From: Pseudolabrys sp.
Lineage (GTDB): Bacteria > Pseudomonadota > Alphaproteobacteria > Rhizobiales > Xanthobacteraceae
Reading direction: 5' to 3'
Assembly (NCBI GenBank): GCA_019635575.1
Contig: JAHBZF010000010.1
Span: 1-48,631, forward strand
DNA length: 48,631 nucleotides
This document shows positions 1,241 through 27,492 of the stretch, piece by piece. The notes beneath the pieces are model-generated. The model saw only the letters and a list, made by a program, of their open reading frames with translations, was not told the origin of the DNA and searched no databases. The position numbers and the translations under genes were made by a program. The stretch's first letter is position 1. Every line of letters begins with the position of its first letter.

Positions 1241-1699
1241 CTATGGCTGCCCAATCGGTGGGCCCAACACGAGATTGTCGCAGGTCGCAGTCACAGCGGC
1301 CTGCCCGCTGACCCGTAGTTCGCCCTCGAACCGCACGATGTCGCCGCCGAGCGACGGCTTCGGCTCGATCGAGACGGCCCGCCAGACAATCTCGCCGGTC
1401 GCACCGGCCGGCACCGCACGGCGCAACTTCACCGCATAGCCGAGCCCAACCACGTTCGCCCGTGCGCAGACGAATTGCGCCAGCCGGCCCAGCATCAGCG
1501 AGGTGGTCTGCGTCGCGCTGGCGATCAGGCCGCCGAAGCGTGAACGCCGCGCCACTACCTCGTCGTGGTGCAAGGGGTTGGTGTCGCCCGCCAACGTCGC
1601 GAACTGCCGGATCCCCTCCGCATCGAAATGGACCGTAGCCCGCACCTCGTCGCCGACCGCGAACGGAACCGGCGACGATGCAACTGCTGCTGGCATCAT
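1241..1699 (-). CDS. MaoC-family (R)-specific enoyl-CoA hydratase-like protein
   Basis: A 152-residue single hot-dog-fold protein. The hydratase-2 signature is visible at about residues 38-58 (GDTNPLHHDEVVA, then RFGGLIASA), containing the catalytic Asp and His of MaoC dehydratases. Such enzymes add water to trans-2-enoyl-CoA or act on related thioesters. It is divergent from the benzoate-type CoA ligase across a 157-bp region with two abutting TTTAC-N6-GTAAA operators, so it is probably part of the same regulon. AAGGGGAA lies just upstream of the ATG. It is one of three MaoC-fold genes in this cluster; the substrate is not evident from sequence. Confidence 0.8.
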   Translation of the reverse strand: MMPAAVASSPVPFAVGDEVRATVHFDAEGIRQFATLAGDTNPLHHDEVVARRSRFGGLIASATQTTSLMLGRLAQFVCARANVVGLGYAVKLRRAVPAGATGEIVWRAVSIEPKPSLGGDIVRFEGELRVSGQAAVTATCDNLVLGPPIGQP

Positions 1700-1769: not shown

Positions 1770-1803
1770 TTTACAACAGAGTAAATTTTACAGTATTGTA
1801 AAA
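1770..1803. promoter_or_regulatory. Tandem TetR-type operators between maoC and the CoA ligase
   Basis: Two inverted repeats with the same layout lie end to end, 1 bp apart. TTTAC-AACAGA-GTAAA is at 1770-1785 and TTTAC-AGTATT-GTAAA at 1787-1802; the latter has arms extended to TTTTACA/TGTAAAA at 1786-1803. The same TTTAC-N6-GTAAA element occurs upstream of the feruloyl-type ligase (7495-7514) and of the maoC-thiolase operon (12963-12982). A weak plus-strand promoter TTTACA-N18-TATTGT (1770-1799) overlaps both sites. The TetR protein encoded at 3447-4148 is the obvious candidate to bind here. Confidence 0.75.
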
Positions 1804-1856: not shown

Positions 1857-3437
1857 ATGCCAGCCGCGACCCAGCCACAAGCCCGGACCGGGCTCACGGG
1901 CAATGTCACCGACTATCTGTTCGAGCATTCCCTGCGTCAGGGCGAGCGGACCTATCTCATCACGCCGGAGCGCAACTGGAGCTTCCGCGCCATCGCTGAC
2001 CGCGCCGGGCAGATCGCCAACTATTTGAAAGCGCTCGGCGTGCGGCCGGGCGAACGCGTGCTGTTCAGCGTGCTCGATGGCGCCGATTTTCCCGCATTAT
2101 TTCTCGGTGCCATGCGCATGGGGGCGATCGCGCTGCCGATCAACAGCTACCTCAAGCCCGACGACTACGCCTACTACATCCGCGACAGTGCCTGCGTCGC
2201 GGTGATCGTCGATCATTCGCTGGCACCGGTCATCAAATCAATCCGCGCCGATCTGCCGGCACTCAGGCACGTCATCGCCACTGGCCAGCCGGTCGACGGT
2301 CTGCCGTTCCTCGACAACGAAATCGACTCCCTTTCCGCAAATTGCCCGGCGTATCCGACCGACCCGGATGATATGGCGTTCTGGCTCTACAGTTCCGGCT
2401 CGACCGGCAGCCCCAAGGGCGTCGTCCACACCGGCAATCACATCTACTGGGCCAGTGAATTGTTCGGCGCAGCCACCATGGGGATGACCGAAAACGACGT
2501 GATCCTGTCGCCACCAAAGATGTATTTCGCGTTCGGCCTCGGCGCGCAGGTCTATTTCCCGTTGCGCATGGGCGCACAGAACATCACCAACCCGAAACCG
2601 ATCTCGCCCGACATCGTCTGGGAGCAGTGGCTGGCGCACGAACCCACCATCGTCATCGGTGTGCCGACCCTGTTCGCGGCGCTGCTACGCATCGCCGAGG
2701 ACAGGATCGGTGCCGAACGGGTACGCACCGCTTGCCGGCGGCTGCGCTACTGCATCAGCGGCGGCGAGGTGCTGCCGGCGGCGTTGATGGAGCGCTGGCG
2801 CAAATTCGCCGACGTGCAGATTCTCGATGGCGTCGGCACCACCGAGATGACACACATGTTCATGCTCAACCGGCTCGATGCCGCCGTACCGGGGAGCTGC
2901 GGCCGGTTGGTCAACGGCTATCGTGCCGAATTGCTGGACGACGCCGGCCAGCGCGTGCCGACCGGCGAGATCGGCAACCTGCATGTCTACGGGCCGACGG
3001 CCGCCACGCAATACTGGAACAAGCCCGAGAAAACCGCCGAGGTCATGGGCAAGGGCGGCGTACTCACCGGCGACAAGATGTCGTGCGATGCTGACGGCAA
3101 CTACTTCCTGGTCGGCCGCTCCGACGACATGCTGCGCGTCGGCGGCATCTGGGTCTCACCGGCCGAGGTAGAGTCCGCGATCGCGCGCCACGACAGCGTG
3201 CTGGAATGCGCGGTGATCGGCTTCCCCGACGAGGAAGGCATGGTCAAACCGAAAGCCTATGTGGTGCTGCGCAACGCCGGCGGCGATGCCGCTGCGATGG
3301 CGGAGGCGCTGCGGACCCATGTGCGCGCCACCCTCGCGCATTTCAAATGTCCACGCTGGTTCGTGTTCGTCGAGGAATTACCGAAGACCAGCACCGGCAA
3401 GATCCAGCGCTTCCGGCTGCGCCAGCTCACCGACTAG
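1857..3437 (+). CDS. Benzoate-CoA ligase family protein
   Basis: Activates an aromatic acid to its CoA thioester with ATP. The 526 residues have the full ANL-superfamily layout: the P-loop YSSGSTGSPKG at 178-188, GTTE at about 328-331, the TGD ATP-ribose motif, and the catalytic lysine K515 in KTSTGKIQR. Length and the N-terminal pattern (NVTDYLFEHSLRQGERTYLI) fit the benzoate/4-hydroxybenzoate ligase group (BadA, BclA) better than long-chain acyl ligases. The ATG at 1857 has GGGAGG 8 bp upstream. It ends 9 bp before the convergent TetR gene. The exact aromatic acid cannot be read from sequence; benzoate, hydroxybenzoates or heteroaromatic acids remain possible. Confidence 0.88.
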   Translation: MPAATQPQARTGLTGNVTDYLFEHSLRQGERTYLITPERNWSFRAIADRAGQIANYLKALGVRPGERVLFSVLDGADFPALFLGAMRMGAIALPINSYLKPDDYAYYIRDSACVAVIVDHSLAPVIKSIRADLPALRHVIATGQPVDGLPFLDNEIDSLSANCPAYPTDPDDMAFWLYSSGSTGSPKGVVHTGNHIYWASELFGAATMGMTENDVILSPPKMYFAFGLGAQVYFPLRMGAQNITNPKPISPDIVWEQWLAHEPTIVIGVPTLFAALLRIAEDRIGAERVRTACRRLRYCISGGEVLPAALMERWRKFADVQILDGVGTTEMTHMFMLNRLDAAVPGSCGRLVNGYRAELLDDAGQRVPTGEIGNLHVYGPTAATQYWNKPEKTAEVMGKGGVLTGDKMSCDADGNYFLVGRSDDMLRVGGIWVSPAEVESAIARHDSVLECAVIGFPDEEGMVKPKAYVVLRNAGGDAAAMAEALRTHVRATLAHFKCPRWFVFVEELPKTSTGKIQRFRLRQLTD

Positions 3438-3446: not shown

Positions 3447-4148
3447 TCACACTACTGGCGGCTTGCCGCGCGGTTTCTCCGCTACACGGGCCACACGCTT
3501 TGCCGGAGTCTTTGTCACCACAGTTTTGCGCCGCGCGCCGGGCGCGACCAGCCCATAGGCGATAAGCTGGAAATAGGTATCGATCAGTTCGCTGATCGGC
3601 GTCGATTTCTTCGGATCGTACCAGCGTGCCAGCCAGTTGCACATGCCGAGAATGCCGAACGCCACCATCTTCGGGTCGCCACAGCGGGTGAACTCGCCTT
3701 TCTCCTGCCCTTCTTCGATCAGCGTCGTCCACATCGTCTCGTAGCTGCGCCAGATCTTGTCCATCTCGCGGCGCACGTCGCGCGCATCGTCGAGATAGAC
3801 ATCGCGCAACGCGACAGTCATTTCCAGGCACTTGCGGTCGAACCGTTCGAGATGGTTCTCCACCGCCTGATACAGCTTGTCGTGGAAACTGGCCTTCGAA
3901 GCCAAGACCTTGCGCAAACCCTCGACCAGCGACTCGCTCTGCGGCCGGATGATGTGCAGCAGGATCTCGGCGCGATTGCCGAAATAATAATAGATCGCCT
4001 CGCGCTTCACGCCGGTTTCCTTGGCGATGTCGTCGAGCGAGGTGTTGGCGAAGCCCTGCCGGTCAAAAATCTCCAGCGCATTCTGGAGAATGGCCTCACG
4101 CCGCAGGGTGGATTTCTTGACTTTGGTGGTCTGGTCGCGCGTCGTCAT
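3447..4148 (-). CDS. TetR-family regulator, probable controller of the aryl-CoA regulon
   Basis: The 233 residues have an N-terminal TetR helix-turn-helix (about residues 17-63, with TSLDDIAKETGVKREAIYYYFGNRAEIL), followed by an all-helical ligand domain and a basic C-terminal tail. It is the last gene of the unit 7383 to 3447, behind the feruloyl-type ligase and the receptor gene. That unit is itself preceded by one of the four TTTAC-N6-GTAAA sites, which suggests autoregulation. Regulators of this kind for aromatic acids often respond to the aryl-CoA thioester, but the effector here is inference. A strong hairpin lies 17 bp upstream of its ATG. Confidence 0.88.
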   Translation of the reverse strand: MTTRDQTTKVKKSTLRREAILQNALEIFDRQGFANTSLDDIAKETGVKREAIYYYFGNRAEILLHIIRPQSESLVEGLRKVLASKASFHDKLYQAVENHLERFDRKCLEMTVALRDVYLDDARDVRREMDKIWRSYETMWTTLIEEGQEKGEFTRCGDPKMVAFGILGMCNWLARWYDPKKSTPISELIDTYFQLIAYGLVAPGARRKTVVTKTPAKRVARVAEKPRGKPPVV

Positions 4149-4251: not shown

Positions 4252-5466
4252 TCAATTCGCCTTGACCAACGGGCAGCCGCCCTTGTCGAGCGGGCGGAAT
4301 GCCTGCTCGGCCGGCAGCGTGCTGACAAGCTTGTAATAGTCCCATGGCTCTTTCGATTCCGCCGGTGCCTTGACCTCGAACAGATGCATCGGGTGCATCT
4401 TGCGACCATCGACACGGATCGTGCCCTGCCCAAACAGCGGATCGTCAGTCTTCATCTCCTTCATCTTGGCGACGACCTTGTCGCCCGCCGTGTCACCATT
4501 CAGCGCCTTCACCGCCTTGAGATAATGCAGCACCGCGGCATAGACGCCGGCCTGCATCTCGTTCGGCATGTTCTTCTTCGGATGCAGTTTCTGGAAGCGC
4601 AGCGACCAGGCACGCGCCTCCGGCGACTGGTTCCAGTAGAACGGGCTGACCGCGAGCAACCCCTGCGCTGCCGGCAGGCCGAGCGCATGAGCGTTGTTGA
4701 TGATGAACACGAGGCCGGCGAGCTTCTGCCCGCTCTTGGTCAAACCGAACTCTGCCGCCTGCTTGATCGCATTGGTCGTGTCGCCGCCGGCATTGGCGAG
4801 CGCGACGATCTTCGCCTTGGAGCTTTGCGCTTGCAGCAGGAAGGAGGAGAAATCCGAAGTGTTGAGCGGATGCCGCACCGCGCCCGCTACCGTGCCGCCA
4901 TTGGCCTTCACCAGACCGGACGCCGCGCGTTCAAGGTCGTGACCGAACGCATAGTCGCTGGTCAGGAAGAACCAGCTATCGCCGCCGGAATTGATCACCG
5001 AACGCACGAGACTGTAGGCCAGCGCGTAATTGTCGAAGGTCCAGTGCACATTGTTCGGCGTGCATTTCGCGCCGGTCAGGTCGGTCGAGACACCACCGGA
5101 GATCAGGAACGTCTTGTTGGCGGCGCGGACGATCTCGCTCACCGCCAACGCGATGCCGGAATTCGGCACATCGGCGATGGCGTCGACGCCATCCACGTCC
5201 AGCCATTTGCGGGCCATGGTGGTGCCGACGTCGACCTTGTTGAGATGATCGCCACCGATGATCTCGACCGGCCGGCCGTTGATCGGCCCGAAGTCCTCCG
5301 CCGCCATCCGCGCGGCGACGACCGAGCCGACACCCTGGAAATCGGCATAGACGCCGGAGGCGTCATTGAGCACGCCGATCTTGATCGGCTTGTCGGCGGC
5401 GATGGCGCTGGTTGCACCACCGATGGCGACCGCGATAGCGGCCGCGCGCAGGATTCCGGACAGCAT
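4252..5466 (-). CDS. Periplasmic receptor of a Liv-type ABC transporter, aromatic-acid type (orphan)
   Basis: The 404 residues begin with a Sec signal peptide (about 1-23, ending SAIAA), followed by a type I periplasmic binding fold starting DKPIKIGVLNDASGVYADFQG. This subgroup includes receptors for p-coumarate and other lignin-derived acids in Rhodopseudomonas. No permease or ATPase gene is adjacent, so it must dock onto a transporter encoded elsewhere. It lies 42 bp downstream of the feruloyl-type CoA ligase and upstream of the TetR gene, so it is probably co-transcribed. AGGGGGAG precedes the ATG. Aromatic specificity is inferred from neighbours and family resemblance. Confidence 0.85.
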   Translation of the reverse strand: MLSGILRAAAIAVAIGGATSAIAADKPIKIGVLNDASGVYADFQGVGSVVAARMAAEDFGPINGRPVEIIGGDHLNKVDVGTTMARKWLDVDGVDAIADVPNSGIALAVSEIVRAANKTFLISGGVSTDLTGAKCTPNNVHWTFDNYALAYSLVRSVINSGGDSWFFLTSDYAFGHDLERAASGLVKANGGTVAGAVRHPLNTSDFSSFLLQAQSSKAKIVALANAGGDTTNAIKQAAEFGLTKSGQKLAGLVFIINNAHALGLPAAQGLLAVSPFYWNQSPEARAWSLRFQKLHPKKNMPNEMQAGVYAAVLHYLKAVKALNGDTAGDKVVAKMKEMKTDDPLFGQGTIRVDGRKMHPMHLFEVKAPAESKEPWDYYKLVSTLPAEQAFRPLDKGGCPLVKAN

Positions 5467-5508: not shown

Positions 5509-7383
5509 TCAGGCCGAGGCGGCGACCGGCGGCGCGGCCTCGGCCGCGACCACCAGCACATCCGACGATGGCGTCGTGTCATAGAGCCGTTCGACCAACA
5601 CGGCGCGACGCTCCAGCACCGCGCGCTGGTTGATGTAGCCCTTGTCGGTGATCTCGTTGCCGTCGATCGACGGCGGCTCGGTCATCAGCAGCACACGGGC
5701 GATGCGGCGGCTGCTGCCGGCATTGGCGCGGTTGAACGCGGACAACGCCTCGCCGAGCTTCGCATGCAACGCCGGGTGCGCGACCAGTTCCTGCGGCGAC
5801 AGCGTCCCGCCGCACACACTCTGGCATCCGGCGACATTGGGAAACACCAGCAGGCCGACCTCGCTGCGGTTATGACCCGTCACCACCGCGTCCTGGATCA
5901 TCGGCGCAGCGGCGCTGATCGCCGACACCCGCAGATCGCCAACCGCGACCCAAGTGCCGCTTGACAGCTTGAAGTTCTCAGACACGCGGCCGTCAAACCG
6001 CAGACCGCGCGTCAACCGTGCCGGATCGACGAAGGTGACAGCATCGCCGAGCTTGAAATAGCCCTCATCGTCGAACGCATCCTGCGTGAGATCGGGCCGG
6101 CCGTAATAGCCGGGCGTGACGTTTTCGCCCTTCACCCGCATCTCCAGCTTGCCGCCGTCCGGCACCAGCTTGATGCTGGTGCCCGGCACCGGCAGGCCGA
6201 CGCCGCCGATATCCTGCGCATGCCAGTGACAGAAGCTCGCCACCGGCGCCGTCTCGGTCGAGCCGAGCGACGACAGGATCGGCAGCCGCGCGCCGCGATG
6301 TTTGACCGCGAGCGCGTCGAGCCGCGTCCACAGATGCGGCGGCAATGCTGCGCCGGCATAGAAAATCACGTCGAGATCGCCGAATACATGGCGAGCGAAG
6401 TCGTCGTCCGCCTCCAGCGCCGGGATCACCATGTCGAAGCCGCGCGGCACGTTGAACAGCAGCGTCGGCTTGACCGCGCGCAGATTGGCGAGCGTGATAT
6501 CGAGCTTGCCCGGCGCCGGCTTGCCGGCGTCGATATACATGGTGCCGCCGTTGCGCAGGATCTGGTTGAGATTGAAGTTGGTGCCAAAGGTGTGGTTCCA
6601 CGGCAGCCAGTCGACGATCACCGGCGGCCGCTCGGTGAGGAACGGCCACGCCTGATCGATCCCGGCCCCATTCGCGCCCATCATCCGCTGGGTGTTGATG
6701 ACGCCCTTCGGCATGCCGGTCGATCCCGAGGTCAGCAGGATTTTCGCGATGCTATCCGGACCGACGGTGCGATAGTGCTGCGCGACGCGATCGTCCGGCG
6801 TGCTCCCCAACAGATCGGCGAAGGTCAACGCATCGGGGAAATCGGCATCAGCCGCATCCGCCAGCAGCGTCACGCCATCGCGCGGCATTGCCGCCAGCGC
6901 CCGCGCGAATGGCTTTAGCGCGGACACATAGATCAGGCTCGGCTGGAATGCTTCGGCAATGTATTTCAGCTTTGCGAAGTTTTCCGACATCAGCGAATAG
7001 GCGGGCGAGATCGGCATGAATGGAATCCCGACCTGCATCGCGCCGAACTTCAACAGCGCCATGTTGATGGAATTGTCGGACAGCGCGGCGACCGGGCGCT
7101 CGGCGCTGTGGCCGCGCTCCAGCAGCGCCTGCGACACGCGGTCGACCAGCATCACCGCTTCGGCATAACGGAGGCGGCGCCAGTCTCCGGCCTGATCGCG
7201 CTCGGCGAGGAAGGTGCGATCCGGCGCTTCCTCCGCCCAGCGGCGCAAGTGATCACTCAGTTGTGCCGGATAAGCGGCGAGCGGCGCGGCGTTGCCGATG
7301 ACGATCTCGCCATTGGCGCGCCGCTCGATGGTCGGCGTCGGCTCGGCAAGACGGATCGGCGCAACGGACGGGTCCAACGGCAT
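5509..7383 (-). CDS. Feruloyl-CoA synthetase-type acid-CoA ligase
   Basis: An ATP-dependent aryl- or phenylpropenoyl-CoA ligase of 624 residues. The length and the opening ([22 protein letters not shown]) match the long feruloyl-CoA synthetase group rather than the 520-residue benzoate group. The adenylation P-loop [16 protein letters not shown] is near residues 200-215, followed by the typical proline/tryptophan segment [16 protein letters not shown] take the ATG at 7383 because GGGAGG stands 7 bp upstream; open reading continues further but lacks a ribosome site. It is first in the unit with the orphan receptor and TetR. Ferulate, p-coumarate or a related phenylpropenoate is the likely substrate; no crotonase-type feruloyl-CoA hydratase-lyase lies nearby. 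Confidence 0.82.
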
Positions 7384-7589: not shown

Positions 7590-8609
7590 TCACGTCTTCG
7601 CCTGCACGAACCGGTCGGTACGGATATCCGCGTCCAGCACGCCGGCGTCCTGCAAGCGTGTCACCGCCGCGTCGATCATCGGCGGCGGCCCGCAGATATA
7701 AGCTTCCAGGCCGAACACATCGCCGAGATGATCAGCCATCACATCGGCGACCAAACCGCGCGATCCGGACCAGCCGGACTGCTCCGACTCGTCGGATAAC
7801 ACCGGCGTGAAGGTGAAATTGGCGTGCTGTTTCGCCCAGCCTTGCAACACGTCGAGACAGTAGAGTTCGTCCCGCGTGCGGGCACCATAGAGGAGATGGA
7901 TTGGCCGCTTGTCGCGCGCGGCAAACGCCCTGTCGAGCAGCGACATCATCGGCGCCAGCCCGGTCCCGCCGGCGACGCAGACCGCCGGCCGCCAGTCATT
8001 GCCGGAAAAACCGAAATGGCCGAACGGGCCGAGCAATTCCAGCATGCCGCCCGGCGACAGGCTCTGGACGAAATCGCCGATCTTGCCGCCGGGATAGACC
8101 CGCACATGAAAGGTAATCGTGTCAGTACCCGGCCGGTTCGCCGCCGAATAGGTACGGTTCGGTGCGACGCCCGGCACCACCCACTCGAAACATTGCCCGG
8201 CATGAAATTCCACCGGCCACGGCGTCTCGACGGTGACGCCGAAGATCGTCGGCGTCAGCCGTTCGACGTTCTGTACCAGCGTGTTGAATGTCGCCGGCCG
8301 GATCGAACTGGTTTCACTCTCCAGCAGTGGCAGATCCAGCACGATGTCGCTGCGCGGAAAACACATGCAGGTGAGGATATGGCCCTGCGCGCGATGCGTG
8401 TCCGTGAAAATCGCCGGATCGGCGCCGGGCAATTCCTGCACCTCGCCATGGACGAGCTTGGCGATGCACTCGCCGCACTCGCCGGAGCGGCAGTTGTACG
8501 GCACCGGCAAGCCGATCTGGATGCAGGCATCGAGCAACGTCTGGTCGGCGCGACAGGTGAGTTCGCTGCCGGACGGCTGAAGCCTCACCTTGCAACCGGG
8601 TGCCGCCAT
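7590..8609 (-). CDS. NAD(P)H:ferredoxin-type reductase with N-terminal 2Fe-2S domain
   Basis: An electron-transfer partner for an oxygenase. The 339 residues read, in order: a plant-type ferredoxin domain (C40, C45, C48 and C81), an FAD domain (RTYSAAN at about 152-158), and an NAD(P) domain (GGTGLAP at 214-220, CGPPPM near the C-terminus). This order is that of phenol/toluene monooxygenase and benzoate dioxygenase reductases. PaaE has the ferredoxin domain at the C-terminus. The gene is last in the 12883-to-7590 unit, 17 bp after the PaaA-like diiron gene, so the two probably form one oxygenase system. Confidence 0.9.
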   Translation of the reverse strand: MAAPGCKVRLQPSGSELTCRADQTLLDACIQIGLPVPYNCRSGECGECIAKLVHGEVQELPGADPAIFTDTHRAQGHILTCMCFPRSDIVLDLPLLESETSSIRPATFNTLVQNVERLTPTIFGVTVETPWPVEFHAGQCFEWVVPGVAPNRTYSAANRPGTDTITFHVRVYPGGKIGDFVQSLSPGGMLELLGPFGHFGFSGNDWRPAVCVAGGTGLAPMMSLLDRAFAARDKRPIHLLYGARTRDELYCLDVLQGWAKQHANFTFTPVLSDESEQSGWSGSRGLVADVMADHLGDVFGLEAYICGPPPMIDAAVTRLQDAGVLDADIRTDRFVQAKT

Positions 8610-8626
8610 GAGAAGCGAGCCTTCCG

Positions 8627-9394
8627 TCAGCCGGCGTAGATCGCGCGATCCGAAAGGTCGCCGCCGATCGACGCGATGAAGTCGTTGCAGCTCTCCGGCA
8701 GCGGCACGCCCCAGTCCTTGGTGATGAAGGCGCGCACCTGCTGGTAATAAGTGTCGCGCATGCCTTCATTGGTGTCGGACTTAAAGCCCCAATGGCGATA
8801 GCGCTCGTTGCTGCGCGACTTCTCGCCGCCAAACGAAGCGAGGCCGACCGGCAGCCATTTCATCACCGCCTGCGCTACCTCGGCCTTGCCATCCGGCGTC
8901 CGCAACAGGGCCTTCACGCCATCCATGCCGAGGCCGACATGGCCGTATTCCTCGTTCAGCGTGTCCTGACAGGCCTGCCGGAACGGCTCGTAGGGCGACT
9001 TGATGAAGTGGCGGAACTGGTGCGCGGCCGCGCGATCGACCAGCGCGAGGAACACCATCTGATCTGCCCAGCTATCGATCGGCACGTCGAAAGTCGAGAG
9101 ATGTGCCTTGTCCTTCACCACCTCTTCCCAGTCGAGGTTGAGATCTTCCAACAGTTTGCGGAAGCGCAGATGATGGCCGTATTCCTCCATCACCGTCTTT
9201 GCCATCCGCATCTTCAAGTCAGCGGTCGGAGCTTTCAGAATGCTGCGCTCGAACGAATCCGCGCCGAACTCCTCGCTCACCACATGGATGGCGATGATAT
9301 TGAGCTGCAGCTTCTTGAACTCTTCGTCCTGATCGAAGAATGCAGTCGGGGTGACATTGCCGAGGCCGGTCTGGTTGGGGTTGAGCTGGATCAT
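8627..9394 (-). CDS. PaaA/PaaC-family diiron oxygenase component
   Basis: A 255-residue ferritin-like protein of the phenylacetyl-CoA epoxidase catalytic-subunit family. All expected iron ligands are visible: Glu41/42 in SEEFGADSFE, E71-x-x-H74 (EEYGHH), D120 (LVDRAAAH) and E149-x-x-H152 (EEYGHVG). It is therefore a catalytic PaaA-like rather than structural PaaC-like subunit, although shorter than PaaA (about 310). No paaB, paaC or paaD genes accompany it, nor a BoxB-size protein. CGGAG precedes the ATG. With the adjacent reductase and two CoA ligases it probably oxygenates an aryl-CoA thioester; the substrate is unknown. Confidence 0.82.
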   Translation of the reverse strand: MIQLNPNQTGLGNVTPTAFFDQDEEFKKLQLNIIAIHVVSEEFGADSFERSILKAPTADLKMRMAKTVMEEYGHHLRFRKLLEDLNLDWEEVVKDKAHLSTFDVPIDSWADQMVFLALVDRAAAHQFRHFIKSPYEPFRQACQDTLNEEYGHVGLGMDGVKALLRTPDGKAEVAQAVMKWLPVGLASFGGEKSRSNERYRHWGFKSDTNEGMRDTYYQQVRAFITKDWGVPLPESCNDFIASIGGDLSDRAIYAG

Positions 9395-9412
9395 GGCGTG
9401 CTCCGGGCTGGA

Positions 9413-10888
9413 TTACTGATAGAAACTGCGCGGCTTCTCGGAGAGATCCGCGACGACATTCTTGACCTGGGTGAAGGCGTACATGGTCTCGAACGCGTCC
9501 TCGCGTCCGTAGCCGCTCGCCTTGGTGCCGCCGAACGCGGCGCCCGACGGAAACAGGTTGTAGCAGTTGATCCAGACGCGACCGGCCTGGATATCGCGCG
9601 CGGTGCGATGCGCACGGCCGAGGTTTTCGGTCCAGATGCCGGCGGCGAGACCGTAGTCGAGCAGGTTCGCGGTCTGCATCATCGCGTATTCGTCGGACCA
9701 GGTCTGGAACGTCAGCACCGGACCGAAGATTTCCTGGCTCGCGACCACCATGTCCGGCTCGGCATCGGCGAAAACCGTCGGCTGCATGAACAGGGCCTTC
9801 GGATAGTCCTTCACCGCAAGCCGGCCGCCGCCGGCGATCAGCTTCGCGCCCTCGCCCTTGCCGATCTCGATATAGCGCAACACCTCGTTGAGATGATCCT
9901 CGTACACCATGGTGCCCATGGTGGTGGCTTTGTCGAACGGATCGCCGATCCTGAGCTGCGGAATGAGATCGACGACTTTCTGTTGCAATTTCTTGGCGAC
10001 CGAATGATGCACCAGCACGCGCGAGCCGGCAGTGCAGACCTGTCCCTGGTTCATGAAGGCGCCGAGCATGATGCCCTGCGCCGCGCGGTCGAGATCGGCG
10101 TCGTCGAACACGATCTGCGCGTTCTTGCCGCCGAGTTCGAGGGTAAGCTGCTTGGTCGACGGCGCGGCAGCAGCCATCACCCTTTTTCCGGTCTCGACCG
10201 AGCCGGTAACGGAAATCTTGCGGATGTCCGGATGCGAGACGATGGCCGCGCCCGCGGTCTCGCCGTAACCGGTTAGTACATTGACGATGCCGGGCGGCAG
10301 GCACTCGGCGATCAGCTTGCACATTTCCAGTGTGGTGAGCGGCGTCGGCTCGGCCGGTTTGTAGATCACGGCGTTGCCGGTGGCGATCGCCGGCGCGATC
10401 TTGCCGAGGAACATGTTGAGGGGAAAATTCCACGCGCCGATGATGCCGATCACCCCGAGTGGCTCGCGGATGTCGTAGCTCATGATGTCGCCGCCGGGCG
10501 AAAACGTGCTTGCCTCCAGCGCACGGCAGACACCGGCATAATAGCGCAGCCGGTCGGCGGCGGTCATGACGTTGGCGTAGCTCTCGCGCCACGGCTTGCC
10601 GGTGTCGCTGGTTTCAAGCCAGGCGAAACGATCCGCATCCTTCACCAGCCGGTCAGCGAGCTTCAACATTGCCGCCGAGCGCTTGCGCGAACCTGCACGC
10701 GACCAGGCTGGCCACGCCGCCTTGGCAACGATCACTGCCTCGACCACGTCGCGCTCGCTGGCATCCGGCACCGTGCACAGCACCTCACCGGTAATCGGGC
10801 TGATGCAATCCATCGTCCGGTTCGAGGACGAGGCGCGCCATTCGTTACCGACGAACAGGTCGTAATGCTTCTGGATCGGATAGGACAT
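9413..10888 (-). CDS. NAD(P)-dependent aldehyde dehydrogenase
   Basis: The 491 residues have the complete ALDH catalytic set: N154 in GAWNFP, E251 in LELGGKN and nucleophile C285 in NQGQVCTAGS. Overall it resembles the betaine/aromatic aldehyde dehydrogenase branch. It oxidises an aldehyde to the acid. It lies between the thiolase and the PaaA-like gene in the same unit. An aromatic aldehyde released by side-chain cleavage, or a ring-opened semialdehyde, are the two substrates that fit the context. The chosen ATG at 10888 overlaps nothing important; an in-frame start at 10903 is possible and would overlap the thiolase end. Confidence 0.88.
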   Translation of the reverse strand: MSYPIQKHYDLFVGNEWRASSSNRTMDCISPITGEVLCTVPDASERDVVEAVIVAKAAWPAWSRAGSRKRSAAMLKLADRLVKDADRFAWLETSDTGKPWRESYANVMTAADRLRYYAGVCRALEASTFSPGGDIMSYDIREPLGVIGIIGAWNFPLNMFLGKIAPAIATGNAVIYKPAEPTPLTTLEMCKLIAECLPPGIVNVLTGYGETAGAAIVSHPDIRKISVTGSVETGKRVMAAAAPSTKQLTLELGGKNAQIVFDDADLDRAAQGIMLGAFMNQGQVCTAGSRVLVHHSVAKKLQQKVVDLIPQLRIGDPFDKATTMGTMVYEDHLNEVLRYIEIGKGEGAKLIAGGGRLAVKDYPKALFMQPTVFADAEPDMVVASQEIFGPVLTFQTWSDEYAMMQTANLLDYGLAAGIWTENLGRAHRTARDIQAGRVWINCYNLFPSGAAFGGTKASGYGREDAFETMYAFTQVKNVVADLSEKPRSFYQ

Positions 10889-10899
10889 GATGGCAGACC

Positions 10900-12069
10900 T
10901 CACACCGTCAACAGATGAACCGTGGCGAACGCGGAATCGCGACCGAGCAATCCGCCCGCCATCTGCGCGAGCCCGACCTTGGCGCCGGCGACTTGCGCCG
11001 CGCCGGCGCGGCCCGCGAGTTGCTCATGGATTTCGAGGATTTGCGCGACGCCGGTCGCGCCGACCGGGTGGCCGCGGCTGGTGAGCCCGCCGCTGACATT
11101 CACCGGGATGCGCCCGCCGAGACTGGTCGCGCCCTCCTCCACCAGCGCAATGGCGCCGCCGCGCGGACACAGCATCAGGTCCTCGATGTCGAACAGTTCC
11201 TGCGGCGCGCTCGGATCGTGCACTTCCGCGACCGACACATCGGACGGCGCGATGCCGGCCGCTTCGTACGCCGCTTGCGCCGCGCGATGCGTGGCATTCC
11301 CCTCGGCATCACCCTCCGGCACACCGGAGACAACACTCGACGCGGCGACGACACTTCCAGTTAAGCCGCGACGACGGGCAAAGTCTTCGCTCACGAGAAC
11401 GACGCAGGCCGCGCCGTCGACCATGCCGCCGCACATGGCGCGGGTAAGCGGCGCGATCACCACTTTGTCCGCCAGCACGCCCTCGACGGTGAGCGGCGCG
11501 CGCTCGGCGGCGCGTTCATTGAGCCCGGCATGGGCGCGGTTCTTGACCGCGACCCTGGCGAAATGCATCGGCGTCGCGCCGTAGCGCGCCATGTATGCGT
11601 TGGCGCGCTCCGCATTGACGTCCATGAACACCGAGCGCCCGTCGCTCTGCGGCGGATGGTCGGTGGCCGACGCCAGCGCCGCGAACGAGCGCGCCTTGTC
11701 GGAATGGGTCAGCTTCTCCGCGCCGAGCACCAAAACGCAGTCATATTGTCCATAGGCGATGGTGCTCCAGGCGAGATGCACCGCGTCGGAGCCGCTGGAG
11801 CAGGCATTCTTCACGGTGCGCATCGGGATGCGGGCGAGACCCGTGGGCGCCAGCAGCACCTGCGCCAGAATCGACTCCTGCCCGGCGAGCGCGCCACCGA
11901 ACGCATTGCCGACGAACGCCGCCTCGATATCACTCGCCGCAAGCCCAACCGCCGCGAGCGCATCGCGCACCACCGGCGTAGCGATCGCCGTCAGCGGCTG
12001 GTCGACGAAGCGACCGAACCGGCCGATCGCGCCGCCCGCGACAAGCACCCGCTGCGCCGGACGGCCCAT
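10900..12069 (-). CDS. SCP2-type thiolase-fold protein
   Basis: A thiolase superfamily member of 389 residues. The nucleophilic Cys is C90 (VKNACSSGSD). H284 (EVHDPSAPQE) and H334 (SRGHPVGATG) complete the SCP2-thiolase pattern. The C-terminal second cysteine of classical degradative thiolases is missing; the corresponding segment reads MAGGLLG. SCP2-type members perform retro-Claisen cleavage or, as Ltp2-like lyases in steroid breakdown, retro-aldol cleavage. It overlaps the upstream maoC stop by one base (TAATG), so they are translationally coupled. In this cluster it is expected to shorten a CoA-activated side chain or ring-fission product. Confidence 0.85.
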   Translation of the reverse strand: MGRPAQRVLVAGGAIGRFGRFVDQPLTAIATPVVRDALAAVGLAASDIEAAFVGNAFGGALAGQESILAQVLLAPTGLARIPMRTVKNACSSGSDAVHLAWSTIAYGQYDCVLVLGAEKLTHSDKARSFAALASATDHPPQSDGRSVFMDVNAERANAYMARYGATPMHFARVAVKNRAHAGLNERAAERAPLTVEGVLADKVVIAPLTRAMCGGMVDGAACVVLVSEDFARRRGLTGSVVAASSVVSGVPEGDAEGNATHRAAQAAYEAAGIAPSDVSVAEVHDPSAPQELFDIEDLMLCPRGGAIALVEEGATSLGGRIPVNVSGGLTSRGHPVGATGVAQILEIHEQLAGRAGAAQVAGAKVGLAQMAGGLLGRDSAFATVHLLTV

Positions 12070-12464
12070 TACCCGACCTCCAGCTCGGCGATGCCCCGCG
12101 CGGTCTCGGTGCCATCACTCTTGCGTGCACTGAGCGCACAGGCGAGCCGCGGCGTGGTTACTGTCACCTCGGCGCGCAAGGTCAGACTGTCCTCGGGATA
12201 AACCGGGGCGGTAAATGTCACATCGAGCACGCGCAGCGCGGCGGCGCCGGCTACATCGGACAACAGCCGCGCGAACTGCGCCGTGGTCATCGGCCCCTGC
12301 TGCAACACGGTCTTGAAGCCAGCTCTGGCGGCAAACGCGTCATCCACATGGATCGGATTGGGATCTTCCGTCGCCTGCGAGAACTGCGCGACACGCGCGC
12401 GCCCCGTCGGCGGCAGCGTCGTCTCGAACAGCACATCACCGGTCGCATAGGCGCGCTTGCTCAT
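12069..12464 (-). CDS. MaoC-family hydratase, catalytic half
   Basis: A 131-residue hot-dog-fold protein. The hydratase motif is TEDPNPIHVDDAFA with Asp and His, followed by GFKTVLQQGPMTTAQ. It follows the MaoC N-terminal-type protein by 17 bp and is coupled to the thiolase. The pair therefore looks like a split, heterodimeric (R)-enoyl-CoA hydratase of the kind seen in HadAB and ChsH1/H2-type systems. The probable job is hydration of an unsaturated acyl-CoA just before cleavage by the neighbouring thiolase-fold enzyme. Confidence 0.82.
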   Translation of the reverse strand: MSKRAYATGDVLFETTLPPTGRARVAQFSQATEDPNPIHVDDAFAARAGFKTVLQQGPMTTAQFARLLSDVAGAAALRVLDVTFTAPVYPEDSLTLRAEVTVTTPRLACALSARKSDGTETARGIAELEVG

Positions 12465-12481
12465 GGTCACACCGCTGCCGA

Positions 12482-12883
12482 TCAGGATTGCTTGACGAGG
12501 CGCGTCACCTCGCGCACCGCCAGCCGGTCGGTTCCGGCGAAACGATAATCGAACGTCACATCGGCGAACCAGACCGTGCCGCGCTTGCCGGTCTTCTCCA
12601 CCATCTTGTCGACGGTCACGGTGACGTCGAAGGCATCGTCGAAGGTCACCGGTGCGAACCATTCATAGCGCTGGCCGCCATGCAGCGCTTTCTCGCGCGG
12701 GATATCCAGGTCCGCGAACAGGTTCACGCCCAGCGTCTCGCCGCGCAGAAACACCAGATAGGTCGGCGGCGGCACCGCCGGCTCCGTATCGACGCCCAGC
12801 GCTGCCATGAATTCACGGGCCCGCGCGCGATCCGGCGTTAGCCGGTACGGCGGATAGACATGGCCCTGCATCGACATCTTCAT
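12482..12883 (-). CDS. MaoC N-terminal-type dehydratase, non-catalytic half
   Basis: The 133 residues resemble the N-terminal half of FAS1-type/MaoC double hot-dog dehydratases (MQGHVYPPYRLTPDRAREF, then PPTYLVF and LHGGQRYEWFAPV). The catalytic D-x-x-x-x-H motif is absent, consistent with a structural partner for the next gene. It is first in the six-gene unit reaching down to the reductase. ATG at 12883 or 12877 are both possible and neither has a strong ribosome site. The predicted transcript starts about 40 nt upstream. Confidence 0.75.
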   Translation of the reverse strand: MKMSMQGHVYPPYRLTPDRARAREFMAALGVDTEPAVPPPTYLVFLRGETLGVNLFADLDIPREKALHGGQRYEWFAPVTFDDAFDVTVTVDKMVEKTGKRGTVWFADVTFDYRFAGTDRLAVREVTRLVKQS

Positions 12884-13410: not shown

Positions 13411-14838
13411 CTACATTTTCAGCGTCAGGAATTTGATGTTGAGGTACGCTTCCAGCGCCTCGGACCCACCCTCGCTGCCATAGCCGGAATCCTTGATACC
13501 CCCGAACGGGACTTCCGGAAGCGCCAATCCGTGATGATTGATCGACAACATGCCGGTTTCGATTCCCGCCGATAACCGGTTGATCCGGTCGAGCGAGCGG
13601 GTATAGGCATAAGCCGCCAGCCCGTAGGGAAGCCGGTTTGCTTCGCTCACCGCTTCGTCCTCGTCGGAGAAACGATTGATCGCGACGAGCGGCCCGAACG
13701 GTTCCTCGTTCATGATCTTGGCCGAGGTTGGAACATTGGCGAGAACCGTCGGCGCGTAGAAGAAGCCCTGGTTGCCGATCCGCCGGCCGCCGGTCATCAC
13801 CTCCGCGCCATTTTCCTTCGCGTTCTCGACGAACTCCTCCATCGCAGAAATACGCCGCGCGGCGACCAGCGGACCCATTTTCGTGTCCGGCTCCATCCCG
13901 TTGCCGACCTTGACGTCGCCGATCGCCTTCGAGAACCGGCCGGCGAATTCATCAAAAACGGAGTCCTGCACCAGCAACCGCGTGGGCGACACGCAAACCT
14001 GGCCAGCGCAGCGGATCTTGTTGGACATCAGAATCGACACCGCGCTGTCGATATCAGCATCATTGAAGATGATCGCCGGCGCATGCCCGCCCAGTTCCAT
14101 GGTGGCGCGCTTCATGTGCAATCCCGCCAGCGCCGCGAGCTTCTTGCCGACCGGCGTGGAGCCGGTGAACGAAATCTTCCGGATCACCGGCGACGGGATC
14201 AGGTATTCCGAGATATCCGACGGCACGCCCAGCACGTAGCTCAGCACGTCTCCCGGAACACCGGCGTCCAGGAATACGCGCACCAGTTCGCCGCAGGAGG
14301 CCGGCGTATCTTCCGGCCCCTTGAGAATGACGGAGCAACCCGTGCAGAGCGCGGCGGCCAGCTTCCGCACCGCCTGATTGATCGGAAAATTCCACGGCGT
14401 AAAACACGCGACCGGGCCGACCGGCTCCCGTGCCGAGATTTGCACGATCGTATCCGAGCGCGACGGAATGGTACGCCCATAAACACGCCGCCCCTCCTCC
14501 GCGAACCAGTCGATCACATCGGCACCGATCATGATCTCGGCGCGCGATTCACCCAGGATCTTTCCTTGTTCGAGGGTCATGATCGGCGCGATCGTGTCGG
14601 CGCGCTCGCGCAGGAGATTGGCCGCCTTGCGCAGGATCTTGGAGCGATCGACCACCGAAACGGCGCGCCAGACCTTGAAGCCGCGCTCGGCGGCGGCGAG
14701 CGCCTCATCCAGATCCTGTCGAGTTGCCACCGGATGCCGGCCGATTTCCGCGCCCGTCGCGGGGTTGAGGATGGGCATGCTTTCGCTGGTCGTGCGCCAG
14801 TTGCCGGCAATGTGAAGGCGAACCTCCGGATACATCAT
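13411..14838 (-). CDS. NAD(P)-dependent (succinate-)semialdehyde dehydrogenase family protein
   Basis: The 475 residues have the ALDH catalytic set N150 (TPWNFP), E248 (MELGGHAP) and C282 (AGQVCVSPTR). The PWNFP-INQ, MELGGHAPAIIF and PEVPFGGIKDSGYG segments are typical of the succinate-semialdehyde/glutarate-semialdehyde branch. It oxidises a short semialdehyde to a dicarboxylic acid. It lies 97 bp downstream of a GntR regulator on the same strand and may be co-transcribed. The nearby Fe-type alcohol dehydrogenase could supply the semialdehyde from a hydroxy acid. Confidence 0.85.
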   Translation of the reverse strand: MMYPEVRLHIAGNWRTTSESMPILNPATGAEIGRHPVATRQDLDEALAAAERGFKVWRAVSVVDRSKILRKAANLLRERADTIAPIMTLEQGKILGESRAEIMIGADVIDWFAEEGRRVYGRTIPSRSDTIVQISAREPVGPVACFTPWNFPINQAVRKLAAALCTGCSVILKGPEDTPASCGELVRVFLDAGVPGDVLSYVLGVPSDISEYLIPSPVIRKISFTGSTPVGKKLAALAGLHMKRATMELGGHAPAIIFNDADIDSAVSILMSNKIRCAGQVCVSPTRLLVQDSVFDEFAGRFSKAIGDVKVGNGMEPDTKMGPLVAARRISAMEEFVENAKENGAEVMTGGRRIGNQGFFYAPTVLANVPTSAKIMNEEPFGPLVAINRFSDEDEAVSEANRLPYGLAAYAYTRSLDRINRLSAGIETGMLSINHHGLALPEVPFGGIKDSGYGSEGGSEALEAYLNIKFLTLKM

Positions 14839-14935
14839 TATCTTCCCCGCATGTGAATGACATCAGACATAGCAACGACAGATCGGCCCGGCAGCGCGAG
14901 CTGTTCTGTTTCCGAGTAGAGCATCCGCCACGCGA

Positions 14936-15763
14936 TCAGTCATCCCGCTTTCCTCGAGCAGACGACGCGCGCTTGCTTCGGTTCGGCGTGTAATCGCCCG
15001 CAACCTCCGGCACCGCGTGGGCCGGCTCGGTGCTGCCGGGCGGATAGAGCGGCAGCCGCAGCGCATAGCGCATCCTGTCGGCGCGATGCACGCTGGTCCC
15101 GATGGCGACGATCGCGCCCGCGGCATCGGTGTACTGCATCGCGCGCGACAGTACCGACGAGCCAGGCATGACCGCCAGCAGCACCGCCTCGTCCGGCGAG
15201 GCCGGGCGCGCCTCGACCTCCCAATCGGCATGGGCGAGCGGTCCGGCGCGCCATAGCGCATTGATGATCGAGCCGGACGCATCCGCCTCGACGAATTGCG
15301 CCGCATCAGCGATCCGTTCCGGAATCCAGCGATCGTCGAGCGCTACCGGTCCGCCGGACACGAGCCGGGCGCGGCGAATATACAGCACGCCTGCACCCCG
15401 CTTGAGTTGCAGCCGTGCCGCCACTTCCGTGCTCGCCGGCCTGCGATCGAAGTGCAGCACCCGTGTCTCGACGTCGAGACCCATCGCGCGCCAGTTGCGG
15501 TCGACGTTCAGCGTCGGGCTCAACGCCTCGACCAGCCGCAGGCCGGTGACATAGCTGCCGCGCCCGCGTTCGCGCCGCAACAGCTTGCGTTTCACCAGAC
15601 CGTCGAGCGCGCGGCGCGCGGTCATCCGGCTGACGCCGAACCGCGCCGCCAGCGCGAGTTCCGAATGGAACGGCTGTTCCGGATGCGACCAGGCAATCGC
15701 CTCCGCCGCCAGCATCGCTTCGAGCTGGAGATAAGGCGGCGTATGGGAGGTGCGGTCGAGCAT
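14936..15763 (-). CDS. GntR-family (HutC/UTRA) regulator
   Basis: The 275 residues have an N-terminal winged helix (about residues 25-75, FHSELALAARFGVSRMTARRALDGLVKRKLL) and a C-terminal UTRA effector domain. It is divergent from the diiron-protein gene across 81 bp containing a probable operator overlapping a TATAAT box. It is clearly paralogous to the second GntR at 18523-19314: both share the LSPxxNxxxxW segment after the HTH and the SVHRADxMRY segment near the end. The start at 15763 gives the usual PPYLQLE opening. The ligand is unknown, presumably the compound handled by the neighbouring enzymes. Confidence 0.87.
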   Translation of the reverse strand: MLDRTSHTPPYLQLEAMLAAEAIAWSHPEQPFHSELALAARFGVSRMTARRALDGLVKRKLLRRERGRGSYVTGLRLVEALSPTLNVDRNWRAMGLDVETRVLHFDRRPASTEVAARLQLKRGAGVLYIRRARLVSGGPVALDDRWIPERIADAAQFVEADASGSIINALWRAGPLAHADWEVEARPASPDEAVLLAVMPGSSVLSRAMQYTDAAGAIVAIGTSVHRADRMRYALRLPLYPPGSTEPAHAVPEVAGDYTPNRSKRASSARGKRDD

Positions 15764-15770
15764 CGGGCTA

Positions 15771-15792
15771 CTTGTATAATACCTTAGACAAG
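15771..15792. promoter_or_regulatory. Probable GntR operator overlapping a -10 box
   Basis: CTTGT and ACAAG flank a 12-bp centre, and inside lies the smaller palindrome GTAT-A-ATAC (15774-15782). The plus-strand perfect -10 TATAAT (15775-15780) is embedded in it, upstream of the diiron-protein gene; no good -35 is seen. Binding of the divergent GntR protein here would block both directions. Confidence 0.55.
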
Positions 15793-15844
15793 GGCAGGAT
15801 AGAGCCACCTTGCCCTATCCGGCCGCAAAAAAGGGAGTGCGCAG

Positions 15845-16780
15845 ATGGACGCCTCGATGTTGGAAGAGACCATCCAGAACCCCAATCCGTATCCCGTCGT
15901 CGCCGAGCTGCAATATGACGACATCTGGCAGCTCTGTCTGCAGGCGCGCACCCTCGCCTGGGATCCGATGAAGGACATCGACTGGGATTCGCTCAAGCGC
16001 CACGCCGAAACATTGCCCGACGAGGTGCGCCAGGCCGGCGCCGAATGGTGGAGCCTGCGCGCCTGGATGGAGCATGGCGCAACCCCCTATGGCGCGGAAC
16101 GCTACCGCGAGGCGGTGTTCGAGCATCTGCCGTTCGAGGTGAAGCAGCACGTTGTCAATTTCATCGCCGAGGAATTGCGGCATCACGAGGCGAGCTTCCG
16201 CGTCGCGGCAGCGCTCGGCGAATATCAACCAACGCCGAAGAGCGACTATTTTCAGATGATCATCCCCAAATTCCACGATGAGGCGGATGAAAAGGCGATG
16301 CCGTTCTATGCCGGCATGGCGGTCAACACGCTGTTCGAGCAGCTCTCCGGCGAGTTGCTGACCGCGCGCTACAAGAATGCGCAGCACCCGGCGATCAAGG
16401 ATGCCTGCCGGCTGATCCTGCGCGACGAGGCGCGGCATATCCAGTTCGGCCGCATCCTGATGCGGCGCTTCTTTGAAACGCTGACAGCGGATCAGAAAGC
16501 CATGCTCGGCGCGAAATTCTCCAAGAAGCTGCGCGGCAGCCTGCTCACCGGTGTCTACGCCGTGGTCAATCTGCCGGAAGACGAACGCAAGCGCAGTGCC
16601 CGCGCCCGCCAGCTCGCCGCCGAATACGGACTCGGCGCGACATTCCCCGACGAGGAAGTCGCGGTGATCGCCCGCGCGCTCGCCGACATCCGTGCCGACG
16701 TCGCGCCCTATGAGGTGCCGATCCCGCTGGTGCCGGAGATCGAAGGCGACAAAGCCGCGCATCGGACGGCGGCGGAGTAA
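15845..16780 (+). CDS. Ferritin-like diiron oxygenase/oxidase of unknown substrate
   Basis: A 311-residue all-helical protein with the two ExxH signatures of diiron carboxylate enzymes: E110-x-x-H113 (AEELRHHEASF) and E195-x-x-H198 (RDEARHIQFGR). Further candidate ligands are Glu76 and Glu166/170. This resembles the AurF / R2-like ferritin superfamily rather than PaaA. Such proteins carry out N-oxygenation, hydroxylation or desaturation. AGGGAG lies 7 bp before the ATG. It is followed 4 bp later by a Rid-family gene and is divergent from a GntR regulator. I cannot assign a substrate; an amine or amino-aromatic compound would fit the partners. Confidence 0.72.
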   Translation: MDASMLEETIQNPNPYPVVAELQYDDIWQLCLQARTLAWDPMKDIDWDSLKRHAETLPDEVRQAGAEWWSLRAWMEHGATPYGAERYREAVFEHLPFEVKQHVVNFIAEELRHHEASFRVAAALGEYQPTPKSDYFQMIIPKFHDEADEKAMPFYAGMAVNTLFEQLSGELLTARYKNAQHPAIKDACRLILRDEARHIQFGRILMRRFFETLTADQKAMLGAKFSKKLRGSLLTGVYAVVNLPEDERKRSARARQLAAEYGLGATFPDEEVAVIARALADIRADVAPYEVPIPLVPEIEGDKAAHRTAAE

Positions 16781-16784
16781 CAGC

Positions 16785-17165
16785 ATGACCAACACACCCG
16801 TCAATCCGCCCGGCACGCCGGCCAGCCTCGCCTACAGCCAGGGTGTTCTGTCCGAGGGCAGCAAGGTCCTGCATATTTCCGGCCAGGTCGGTGTCGGGCC
16901 GGACGGCAAAGCCGGCAACGGCATCGCCGAGCAATGCCGCTTCGCCTGGGCCAATCTGGCGGCCGCGCTGAAGGCGGGCGGGATGGAGATCGGCGACCTC
17001 GTCAAGATCACCAGCTTCCTGACGAAAGCCGGCGACATCGCTGCCTATCGCGAGACACGCGGCGCCGCGCTCGGATCGCACAAACCGGCCAGCACGCTGA
17101 TCGTCGTCAGCGCGCTCGCCGATCCGGGCTGGCTCGTCGAGATCGAAGGCGTCGCAATCCGCTGA
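16785..17165 (+). CDS. Rid-family protein lacking the catalytic arginine
   Basis: A 126-residue YjgF/YER057c/UK114 fold (trimeric chorismate-mutase-like). Conserved features include SGQVGVGPDG and the C-terminal VEIEGVAI. The arginine of the usual P-A-R-x motif, essential for enamine/imine hydrolysis in RidA, is replaced: the segment at 101-104 reads PAST. It is therefore unlikely to be a classical 2-aminoacrylate deaminase and may be one of the Rid subfamilies with other roles. It follows the diiron gene by 4 bp, so the two are surely co-expressed. It ends 3 bp from the convergent alcohol dehydrogenase gene. Confidence 0.83.
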   Translation: MTNTPVNPPGTPASLAYSQGVLSEGSKVLHISGQVGVGPDGKAGNGIAEQCRFAWANLAAALKAGGMEIGDLVKITSFLTKAGDIAAYRETRGAALGSHKPASTLIVVSALADPGWLVEIEGVAIR

Positions 17166-17168
17166 TGC

Positions 17169-19314: not shown

Positions 19315-19324
19315 GAGCGGAGCC

Positions 19325-24354: not shown

Positions 24355-24361
24355 GGTGCGC

Positions 24362-25483: not shown

Positions 25484-25505
25484 CACAAACTCCCCTTTGG
25501 ACCTA

Positions 25506-25543
25506 TGTCATGACAACGATACATTTAAAAACCCTCGCGTCAA
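25506..25543 (-). promoter_or_regulatory. Promoter with abutting palindromic operator
   Basis: On the minus strand TTGACG (25538-25543), a 16-bp spacer and TATCGT (25516-25521) form a promoter-like pair. The perfect palindrome TGTCATGACA (25506-25515) directly follows the -10 and would cover the start site, about 20 bp before the receptor ATG. GT-N4-AC cores of this type are typical GntR/HutC sites, so the GntR encoded in the same unit is the likely binder. Confidence 0.6.
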
Positions 25544-26640: not shown

Positions 26641-26644
26641 GCCG

Positions 26645-27487: not shown

Positions 27488-27492
27488 GCCTG

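Follow-up and report, generated by a model that had tools for sequence, protein, structure and literature searches.

The window analyzed here, a stretch of 48,631 nucleotides from Pseudolabrys sp. (GenBank assembly GCA_019635575.1, contig JAHBZF010000010.1), encodes on its minus strand, at positions 7590-12883, a six-gene operon that includes a PaaA-like diiron oxygenase subunit and a reductase of its own. This operon and the genes for two aryl-coenzyme A (CoA) ligases share an operator palindrome, and they almost certainly form one regulated pathway. Its function can be named more tentatively: at slightly less than an even chance, it is an aerobic aromatic-acid pathway that acts on CoA esters and follows the logic of the paa and box pathways with other parts, probably under TetR control.

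In the direction of transcription, and at close spacing, the six frames encode the two halves of a split MaoC hydratase (MaoN and MaoC), an SCP2-type thiolase, an aldehyde dehydrogenase, the oxygenase, and the reductase (Table 1); the positions and order given in an earlier, sequence-only reading of this DNA were confirmed among the open reading frames of the window. That reading had also described a single PaaA-like protein with all iron ligands and no PaaC partner, a reductase ordered 2Fe-2S, FAD, NAD and thus unlike PaaE, the hydratase, thiolase, and dehydrogenase named above, and two aryl-CoA ligases in the same regulon. Each of these points was upheld by the analyses that follow, while its wider statements on missing genes and on novelty stood in part.

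Table 1. Features of the putative aryl-CoA oxygenation cluster and its surroundings (positions in the window)
Feature	Position	Strand	Evidence or context
MaoN, 133 aa, hotdog half of split MaoC hydratase without catalytic motif	12482..12883	-	PF13452, AlphaFold2, Foldseek
MaoC, 131 aa, catalytic half, motif EDPNPIH (D34, H39)	12069..12464	-	PF01575
SCP2-type thiolase, C90, H284, H334	10900..12069	-	Pfam, solved relative 6hsj, residues
Aldehyde dehydrogenase, catalytic Cys and Glu present	9413..10888	-	PF00171
PaaA-like diiron oxygenase subunit, 255 aa	8627..9394	-	PF05138, ligands, AlphaFold2
NAD(P)H reductase, N-terminal [2Fe-2S] (C40, C45, C48 and C81 or C83), FAD, NAD; BenC/MmoC type	7590..8609	-	
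Operator palindrome TTTTACAGATATGTAAAA	12964..12981	.	80 bases upstream of main operon (MaoN)
Operator palindrome TTTTACGATATCGTAAAA	7496..7513	.	Upstream of Fcs-SBP-TetR genes (Fcs-like ligase, solute-binding protein, regulator)
Operator palindrome TTTTACAGTATTGTAAAA (1786-1803) and shorter second match (1770-1785)	1770..1803	.	Upstream of ligB
Acyl-CoA synthetase, PRK12582 family	5509..7383	-	NF009232, 794.8 bits, cut-off 777
Periplasmic solute-binding protein of ABC importer	4252..5466	-	PF13458, 346.6 bits; 3i09
TetR-family regulator, likely operator owner by neighborhood	3447..4148	-	TetR_N, TetR_C_24
ligB, aryl-CoA ligase, benzoate-CoA ligase family	1857..3437	+	TIGR02262; 4wv3, 2v7b
MaoC-domain protein, divergent from ligB, shares operator region, tentative member	1241..1699	-	PF01575, 44.5 bits

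The oxygenase, its reductase and the operon

The oxygenase belongs to the PaaA_PaaC family (PF05138; 49.1 bits, cut-off 28.5) and falls below the PaaA equivalog TIGR02156 (67.3 bits versus a cut-off of 280); genuine PaaA proteins from two members of this genus reach 532 bits on that model. Its residues E41, E71, H74, D120, E149, and H152 align with E42, E72, H75, D126, E155, and H158, the six iron ligands of Escherichia coli PaaA (PMC4498308, a source used here and below in excerpt), and these carboxylate and histidine positions do not vary in two alignments, of 21 and 17 sequences, drawn from PaaA and from the two clades, clade 1 and clade 2, described in the next section. As judged by alignment, all six predicted iron ligands are present. 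PaaA is also the nearest solved relative both by sequence and by fold (TM 0.79, 24-25% identity; AlphaFold2 model pLDDT 85.5), and arithmetic on the alignment places F102 at the position of PaaA F108, a residue responsible for orienting the acyl group (PMC4498308), with K96 adjoining the place of K103.

By itself, PaaA is insoluble, and it sits on PaaC (PMC4498308). Neither PaaA nor PaaC was found in a PF05138 search of six clade-1 genomes, including the window's own (G000, 83.6% complete); the matches were the oxygenase itself, BoxB in G000 and G015, and one divergent member in G338. In contrast, G010, from the same genus, has adjacent PaaA, PaaB, and PaaC, each above its cut-off. In the pathway that we propose below, the oxygenase would be a PaaC-independent relative of PaaA. 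SSO1313 of Sulfolobus (4mud), likewise a short PaaA-like protein, has a solved structure made up of a single chain in four copies, but it is only 19-20% identical to the oxygenase, and no paper naming it was found in the open-access literature searched. The divergent member in G338 (L078:1438-2211) is a third kind of PF05138 protein, outside PaaA, PaaC, clade 1, and clade 2; it scores 38.7 bits against the PaaA model, has no PaaC match, and reaches neither cut-off.

In the reductase, Pfam places Fer2 at residues 9-85, FAD at 133-199, and NAD at 212-315. PaaE has the opposite arrangement, with the FAD/NAD part first and 2Fe-2S last (PMC4498308). The protein matches the BenC and MmoC models from end to end, at 193 and 188 bits, which do not reach the respective cut-offs of 430 and 500.

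Among the remaining products, MaoC (MaoC_dehydratas, PF01575, 63 bits; solved relative 1iq6, an (R)-specific enoyl-CoA hydratase) carries a D-x4-H dyad that is invariant in 9 of 9 sequences and has the spacing of D561/H566 in PaaZ (PMC6739347, also in excerpt). MaoN lacks this motif; it passes FAS1_DH_region (PF13452; 31.6 bits, cut-off 22), and the best Foldseek matches of its AlphaFold2 model (pLDDT 86.7) are HadBD, HadAB, ChsH1-ChsH2, and itaconyl-CoA hydratase subunits. HadAB and ChsH1-ChsH2, which act on acyl-acyl carrier protein or steroid CoA, likewise combine one catalytic with one motif-less hotdog subunit, whereas the split MaoC of this cluster is tied to an oxygenase. The thiolase, whose start codon overlaps the MaoC stop by one base, matches Thiolase_C_1 (120.9 bits) and Thiolase_N (74.2 bits); its resemblance to 6hsj (E 4.4e-52) argues for SCP2-type membership, and the candidate nucleophile C90 lies within NACSSG. 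The aldehyde dehydrogenase has 530 bits on Aldedh (PF00171), and none of its matches listed (25 of 45) reaches an NCBIfam cut-off. The cluster has no fusion of the PaaZ type; its aldehyde dehydrogenase and MaoC are encoded by separate genes.

Phylogeny and conserved neighborhood

Phylogenetic analysis of 45 sequences (13 from clade 1, 19 of 23 from clade 2, 8 of 13 PaaA rows, four PaaC, and the L078 protein; BoxB was left out) separated clade 1 (98/98), to which the oxygenase belongs, from PaaA (100/98), and no characterized member of the oxygenase clade was found in the open-access literature searched. The tree leaves the deepest branching among clade 1, clade 2, and PaaA uncertain: PaaC and the L078 protein lie on long branches, and clade 2 was not recovered as one group once PaaC was included.

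A survey of the class (385 genomes, 1e-20) gave 27 matches, of which five belong to clade 1 (66-100% identity, own genome included) and 22, one per genome, to clade 2 (29-36%). The oxygenase occurs in 3 of 43 genomes of its own genus and in 2 of 6 in the genus of G164. A sample of the phylum (398 genomes, 1e-12) gave seven matches: besides the own genome there were two of clade-2 type, plus four (28-30% identity) whose neighboring genes mark them as PaaA. Scanning named genomes with two clade-1 peptide patterns recovered 12 loci, by their titles eleven from Alphaproteobacteria (including Rhizobiales bacterium 64-17, a Pseudolabrys, and sponge and marine bins) and one from a groundwater Proteobacteria bacterium. 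Some of the resulting 13 loci (the window and these 12), on which all clade-1 neighborhood counts are based, come from genomes already in the surveys, and they therefore represent fewer than 13 independent lineages. On plasmids, no close relative was seen among the matches listed (30 of 180; best listed identity 28.8%), and the annotated ones among these are PaaA or phenylacetate proteins.

The pairing of a PaaA-like gene with this type of reductase proved to be conserved. In 12 of 13 clade-1 loci the reductase and oxygenase genes are direct neighbors (the contig of the remaining one, L065, ends 51 bases past the oxygenase gene), and a BenC/MmoC-type reductase is present in 22 of 22 clade-2 loci, where a single short-chain dehydrogenase/reductase (SDR) gene lies between the two. 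Oxygenase and reductase very probably work as a pair. MaoN and MaoC were found in 11 of 13 clade-1 loci (L062 and L064 are cut by contig ends), and the core of MaoN, MaoC, oxygenase, and reductase is wholly visible in 10, contig ends cutting the other three; the frames of the relatives' genes in this GC-rich DNA were anchored on homology. The thiolase and aldehyde dehydrogenase genes, present in 8 of 13, are outside the invariant core, and ligB (at least 49% identity) is likewise present in 8 of 13. An additional thiolase gene is found in L062 and L063, together with genes for an SDR and a crotonase. Because the gene order recurs in loci whose oxygenases are 62-84% identical, it is not due to chance.

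The gene content of clade 2 was taken from 15 of its 22 loci (L046-L060). It comprises the SDR (15 loci), a gentisate 1,2-dioxygenase (13; 521 bits on TIGR02272, cut-off 442, in the one member scanned), an NDP-forming CoA ligase (7), and a thioesterase (5); L056:4673-11026, with the PaaA-like protein, SDR, reductase, and gentisate 1,2-dioxygenase, is an example. None of the 15 loci has a MaoN, MaoC, thiolase, or aldehyde dehydrogenase of the window kind, and conversely none of the 13 clade-1 loci contains anything that matches the gentisate dioxygenase of clade 2. This content suggests a route from aryl-CoA to gentisate, a module for which no description was found in the open-access literature.

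Operator, ligases and flanking genes

The window contains three exact copies of the palindrome TTTTACN6GTAAAA, for which 100 shuffles gave an expectation of 0.00. These three are also its only sites in the own assembly and in G015 (rated 100% complete), and a reversed control pattern has no site in either. Confinement of the palindrome to the operon and both ligases indicates a dedicated regulon. A 16-base core of the operator precedes MaoN in all 11 clade-1 loci that hold this gene, and it recurs in L062 and L063 at the Fcs and crotonase genes, in L063 also at ligB; it was found in none of the 15 clade-2 loci and not in L064, which has no MaoN in view. Four other clade-1 genomes have one 16-base site per cluster and genome totals of 3, 1, 1, and 2, versus 1, 2, 2, and 3 for the reversed control, and the looser pattern is thus uninformative outside the cluster; additional 16-base sites were dropped as markers of further pathway genes. 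The TetR-family protein, whose gene neighbors the core in 7 of the 12 named loci, probably binds the palindrome, to judge from its neighborhood.

The ligase LigB exceeds the cut-off of the benzoate-CoA ligase model (519.6 bits versus 375.25), and its solved relatives are an anthranilate-CoA ligase (4wv3) and a benzoate-CoA ligase (2v7b). Its gene converges on those for the regulator, the binding protein, and the second ligase, which we take to be feruloyl-CoA-synthetase-like (Fcs-like). The latter has no solved relative at E 1e-25, hence no clue to its substrate, and among the 13 loci it is found only in the window, L061, L062, and L063. The binding protein was no help with the substrate either, its nearest solved protein being named a branched-chain amino-acid binder. 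A counterpart of the MaoC-domain protein divergent from ligB adjoins in L061 too.

In sponge-type and related hosts (L042:12303-13358 and its neighbor; L066, L067, and L070; L110:4540-6688), one or two genes for proteins of ~350 residues come after ligB. The one member scanned is related to epoxyqueuosine reductase and reductive dehalogenases; the pathway could include a step of dehalogenation or epoxide reduction. Further along the window (13411-28827) lie unrelated-looking genes, including a second aldehyde dehydrogenase, GntR/UTRA regulators, an iron alcohol dehydrogenase, a gamma-glutamyltranspeptidase, and ABC importer genes.

A tentative pathway, its alternatives and its meaning

In the pathway we propose, an aromatic acid, probably a substituted benzoate, would be imported and activated by LigB, with the Fcs-like ligase activating a related acid in the window group. 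The diiron protein, supplied with electrons by the NAD(P)H/FAD/[2Fe-2S] reductase, would epoxidize the aryl-CoA ring; the split MaoC would add water at Cbeta of the oxepin or epoxide (2,3-oxepin) and open the ring, like the hydratase half of PaaZ, with which it shares only the D-x4-H dyad; the aldehyde dehydrogenase would oxidize the resulting semialdehyde, like the other half of PaaZ or BoxD; and the thiolase would complete beta-oxidation, assisted in two relatives by an SDR, a crotonase, and another thiolase. The substrate is likely a CoA ester. For epoxidation with hydrolytic ring opening we would claim somewhat less than even confidence, and we infer the substrate, epoxidation over hydroxylation, and, by analogy, the role of MaoC.

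Several observations are consistent with this proposal. The scanned window genes include no ring-cleaving dioxygenase, which fits hydrolytic ring opening. MaoC accompanies the oxygenase and reductase also in loci without thiolase and aldehyde dehydrogenase, which points to the oxygenase product as its substrate; MaoC most likely works there, next to the oxygenase. A BoxB is encoded near the end of another contig of the own genome (C163, L112:8627-10072; TIGR03225 914 bits, cut-off 499), and the same protein by sequence occurs in G015 (L079:1186-2637). Box therefore probably serves benzoate in this organism, which probably uses the window cluster for something else, and a ligase of the benzoate family in a genome with BoxB for plain benzoate is counted in favor of the proposal.

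Other observations weigh against it. The lysine of the PaaA lysine bridge, K68, is replaced by T67 in the alignment, and the C-terminal segment of PaaA is missing (255 versus about 311 aa), and with it the position of L286, a residue that helps to form the CoA door of PaaA (PMC4498308). The scanned window genes include no crotonase of the PaaG or BoxC type. Of five clade-1 genomes searched, only G015 and G164 have a close copy of the aldehyde dehydrogenase (E 1e-150), with none in G338, G244, and G416, and the last two steps are thus not universal. G244 has no copy of ligB above 42% identity, and in G416 ligB sits on another contig. Finally, the gentisate dioxygenase of clade 2 points to hydroxylation, not epoxidation, for the relative.

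This last point also favors a different, rather unlikely account that gives a role to every gene: the Fcs-like ligase, MaoC, the SCP2 enzyme (as retro-aldolase or thiolase), and the aldehyde dehydrogenase would shorten a cinnamate-type acid to benzoate, LigB would reactivate it, the diiron pair would hydroxylate it, and a hydrolase would free hydroxybenzoate for a central pathway elsewhere. An alpha/beta-hydrolase gene does follow the reductase in L062 and L071. However, L066, L070, L071, and L072 keep MaoC, thiolase, and aldehyde dehydrogenase with no Fcs in their visible flanks, and the MaoC pair persists directly before the oxygenase, without thiolase and aldehyde dehydrogenase, in L065, L067, L068, and L069. 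Furthermore, the SCP2 enzyme retains the thiolase cysteine C90, and no DUF35-type partner is among the scanned window genes.

Less probable still is an oxygenase acting on a non-aromatic unsaturated or alicyclic acyl-CoA, with MaoC, thiolase, and aldehyde dehydrogenase as an ordinary beta-oxidation set. Split MaoC pairs such as ChsH1-ChsH2 do serve bulky steroid CoA esters, and the thiolase matches include SCP2-type models under the name lipid-transfer protein, but LigB scores above the benzoate-CoA ligase cut-off, is closest to anthranilate and benzoate ligases, and its gene carries the shared palindrome. That the genes are instead a paa or box operon, decayed or misread in a fragmentary metagenome assembly, a reading suggested by the fact that nearly all named relatives are metagenome-assembled genomes, is very improbable, since it is already contradicted by the conserved synteny in distant hosts, as well as by intact frames, a clade of its own, and a near-identical copy in the complete-rated G015.

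The proposed epoxidation and ring opening invites comparison with paa and box, and the claim that the cluster is neither of them holds for its parts but perhaps not for its logic. With paa it shares the diiron fold and ligand set, a CoA ligase upstream, and hydratase, aldehyde dehydrogenase, and thiolase functions downstream. PaaZ fuses aldehyde dehydrogenase and MaoC-type hydratase activities (PMC4498308, PMC6739347), and thiolysis follows in the paa pathway (PMC4498308), so that the separate aldehyde dehydrogenase, MaoC, and thiolase correspond in kind to PaaZ and PaaJ. The cluster differs from paa in its reductase, its unfused hydratase, and its benzoate-type ligase, and PaaB, PaaC, and PaaD are not among its genes (PaaB, PaaD, PaaG, and PaaZ were not searched genome-wide). 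It shares with box a benzoate-type CoA ligase, a diiron oxygenase with a separate reductase, and a separate aldehyde dehydrogenase, but BoxB, of about 480 aa, is distant (TM 0.63, first at rank 22 of the fold search), and BoxC has a crotonase fold (PMC4498308) where the cluster has a split MaoC. Neither BoxB nor BoxC is among the scanned window genes; the absence of these and of PaaB, PaaC, PaaD, PaaG, and PaaZ reported earlier is thus true of the cluster, but not, for BoxB, of the genome. The gentisate-linked clusters of clade 2 share a related PaaA-like protein and the same reductase type, and differ in their SDR and gentisate dioxygenase and in lacking MaoN, MaoC, thiolase, and aldehyde dehydrogenase of the window kind.

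To our knowledge, paa and box are the only two textbook aerobic pathways that epoxidize an aromatic CoA ester. The families of the parts are known, and we regard the system as a variant of the aerobic aryl-CoA oxygenation pathways; no description was found of the combination, of a PaaC-independent oxygenase pair, or of a pathway so defined by a palindrome. The suggestion of an undescribed pathway is compatible with this result, which rests on limited open-access literature (subscription papers and preprints were outside its scope) and is weak evidence of absence. With more reserve than for the chemistry itself, we suggest that this might be a third aerobic aryl-CoA epoxidation pathway, in which a two-component, PaaC-independent epoxidase served by a BenC/MmoC-type reductase acts on a substituted benzoyl-CoA, a split MaoC resembling HadAB opens the ring by hydrolysis, and one operator controls the genes. 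Owing to the three-site palindrome, the gene list of the pathway is unusually clear, and hence it is directly testable. An oxygenase that needs no PaaB or PaaC and recurs in two neighborhoods, with MaoC or with gentisate dioxygenase, would alter the "phenylacetate degradation" annotation of PF05138 genes, and it would provide a small two-gene aryl-CoA oxygenase for biochemistry. If such a third pathway is real, then together with the gentisate-linked clade 2 it would make the PaaA fold a general, modular aryl-CoA oxygenase.

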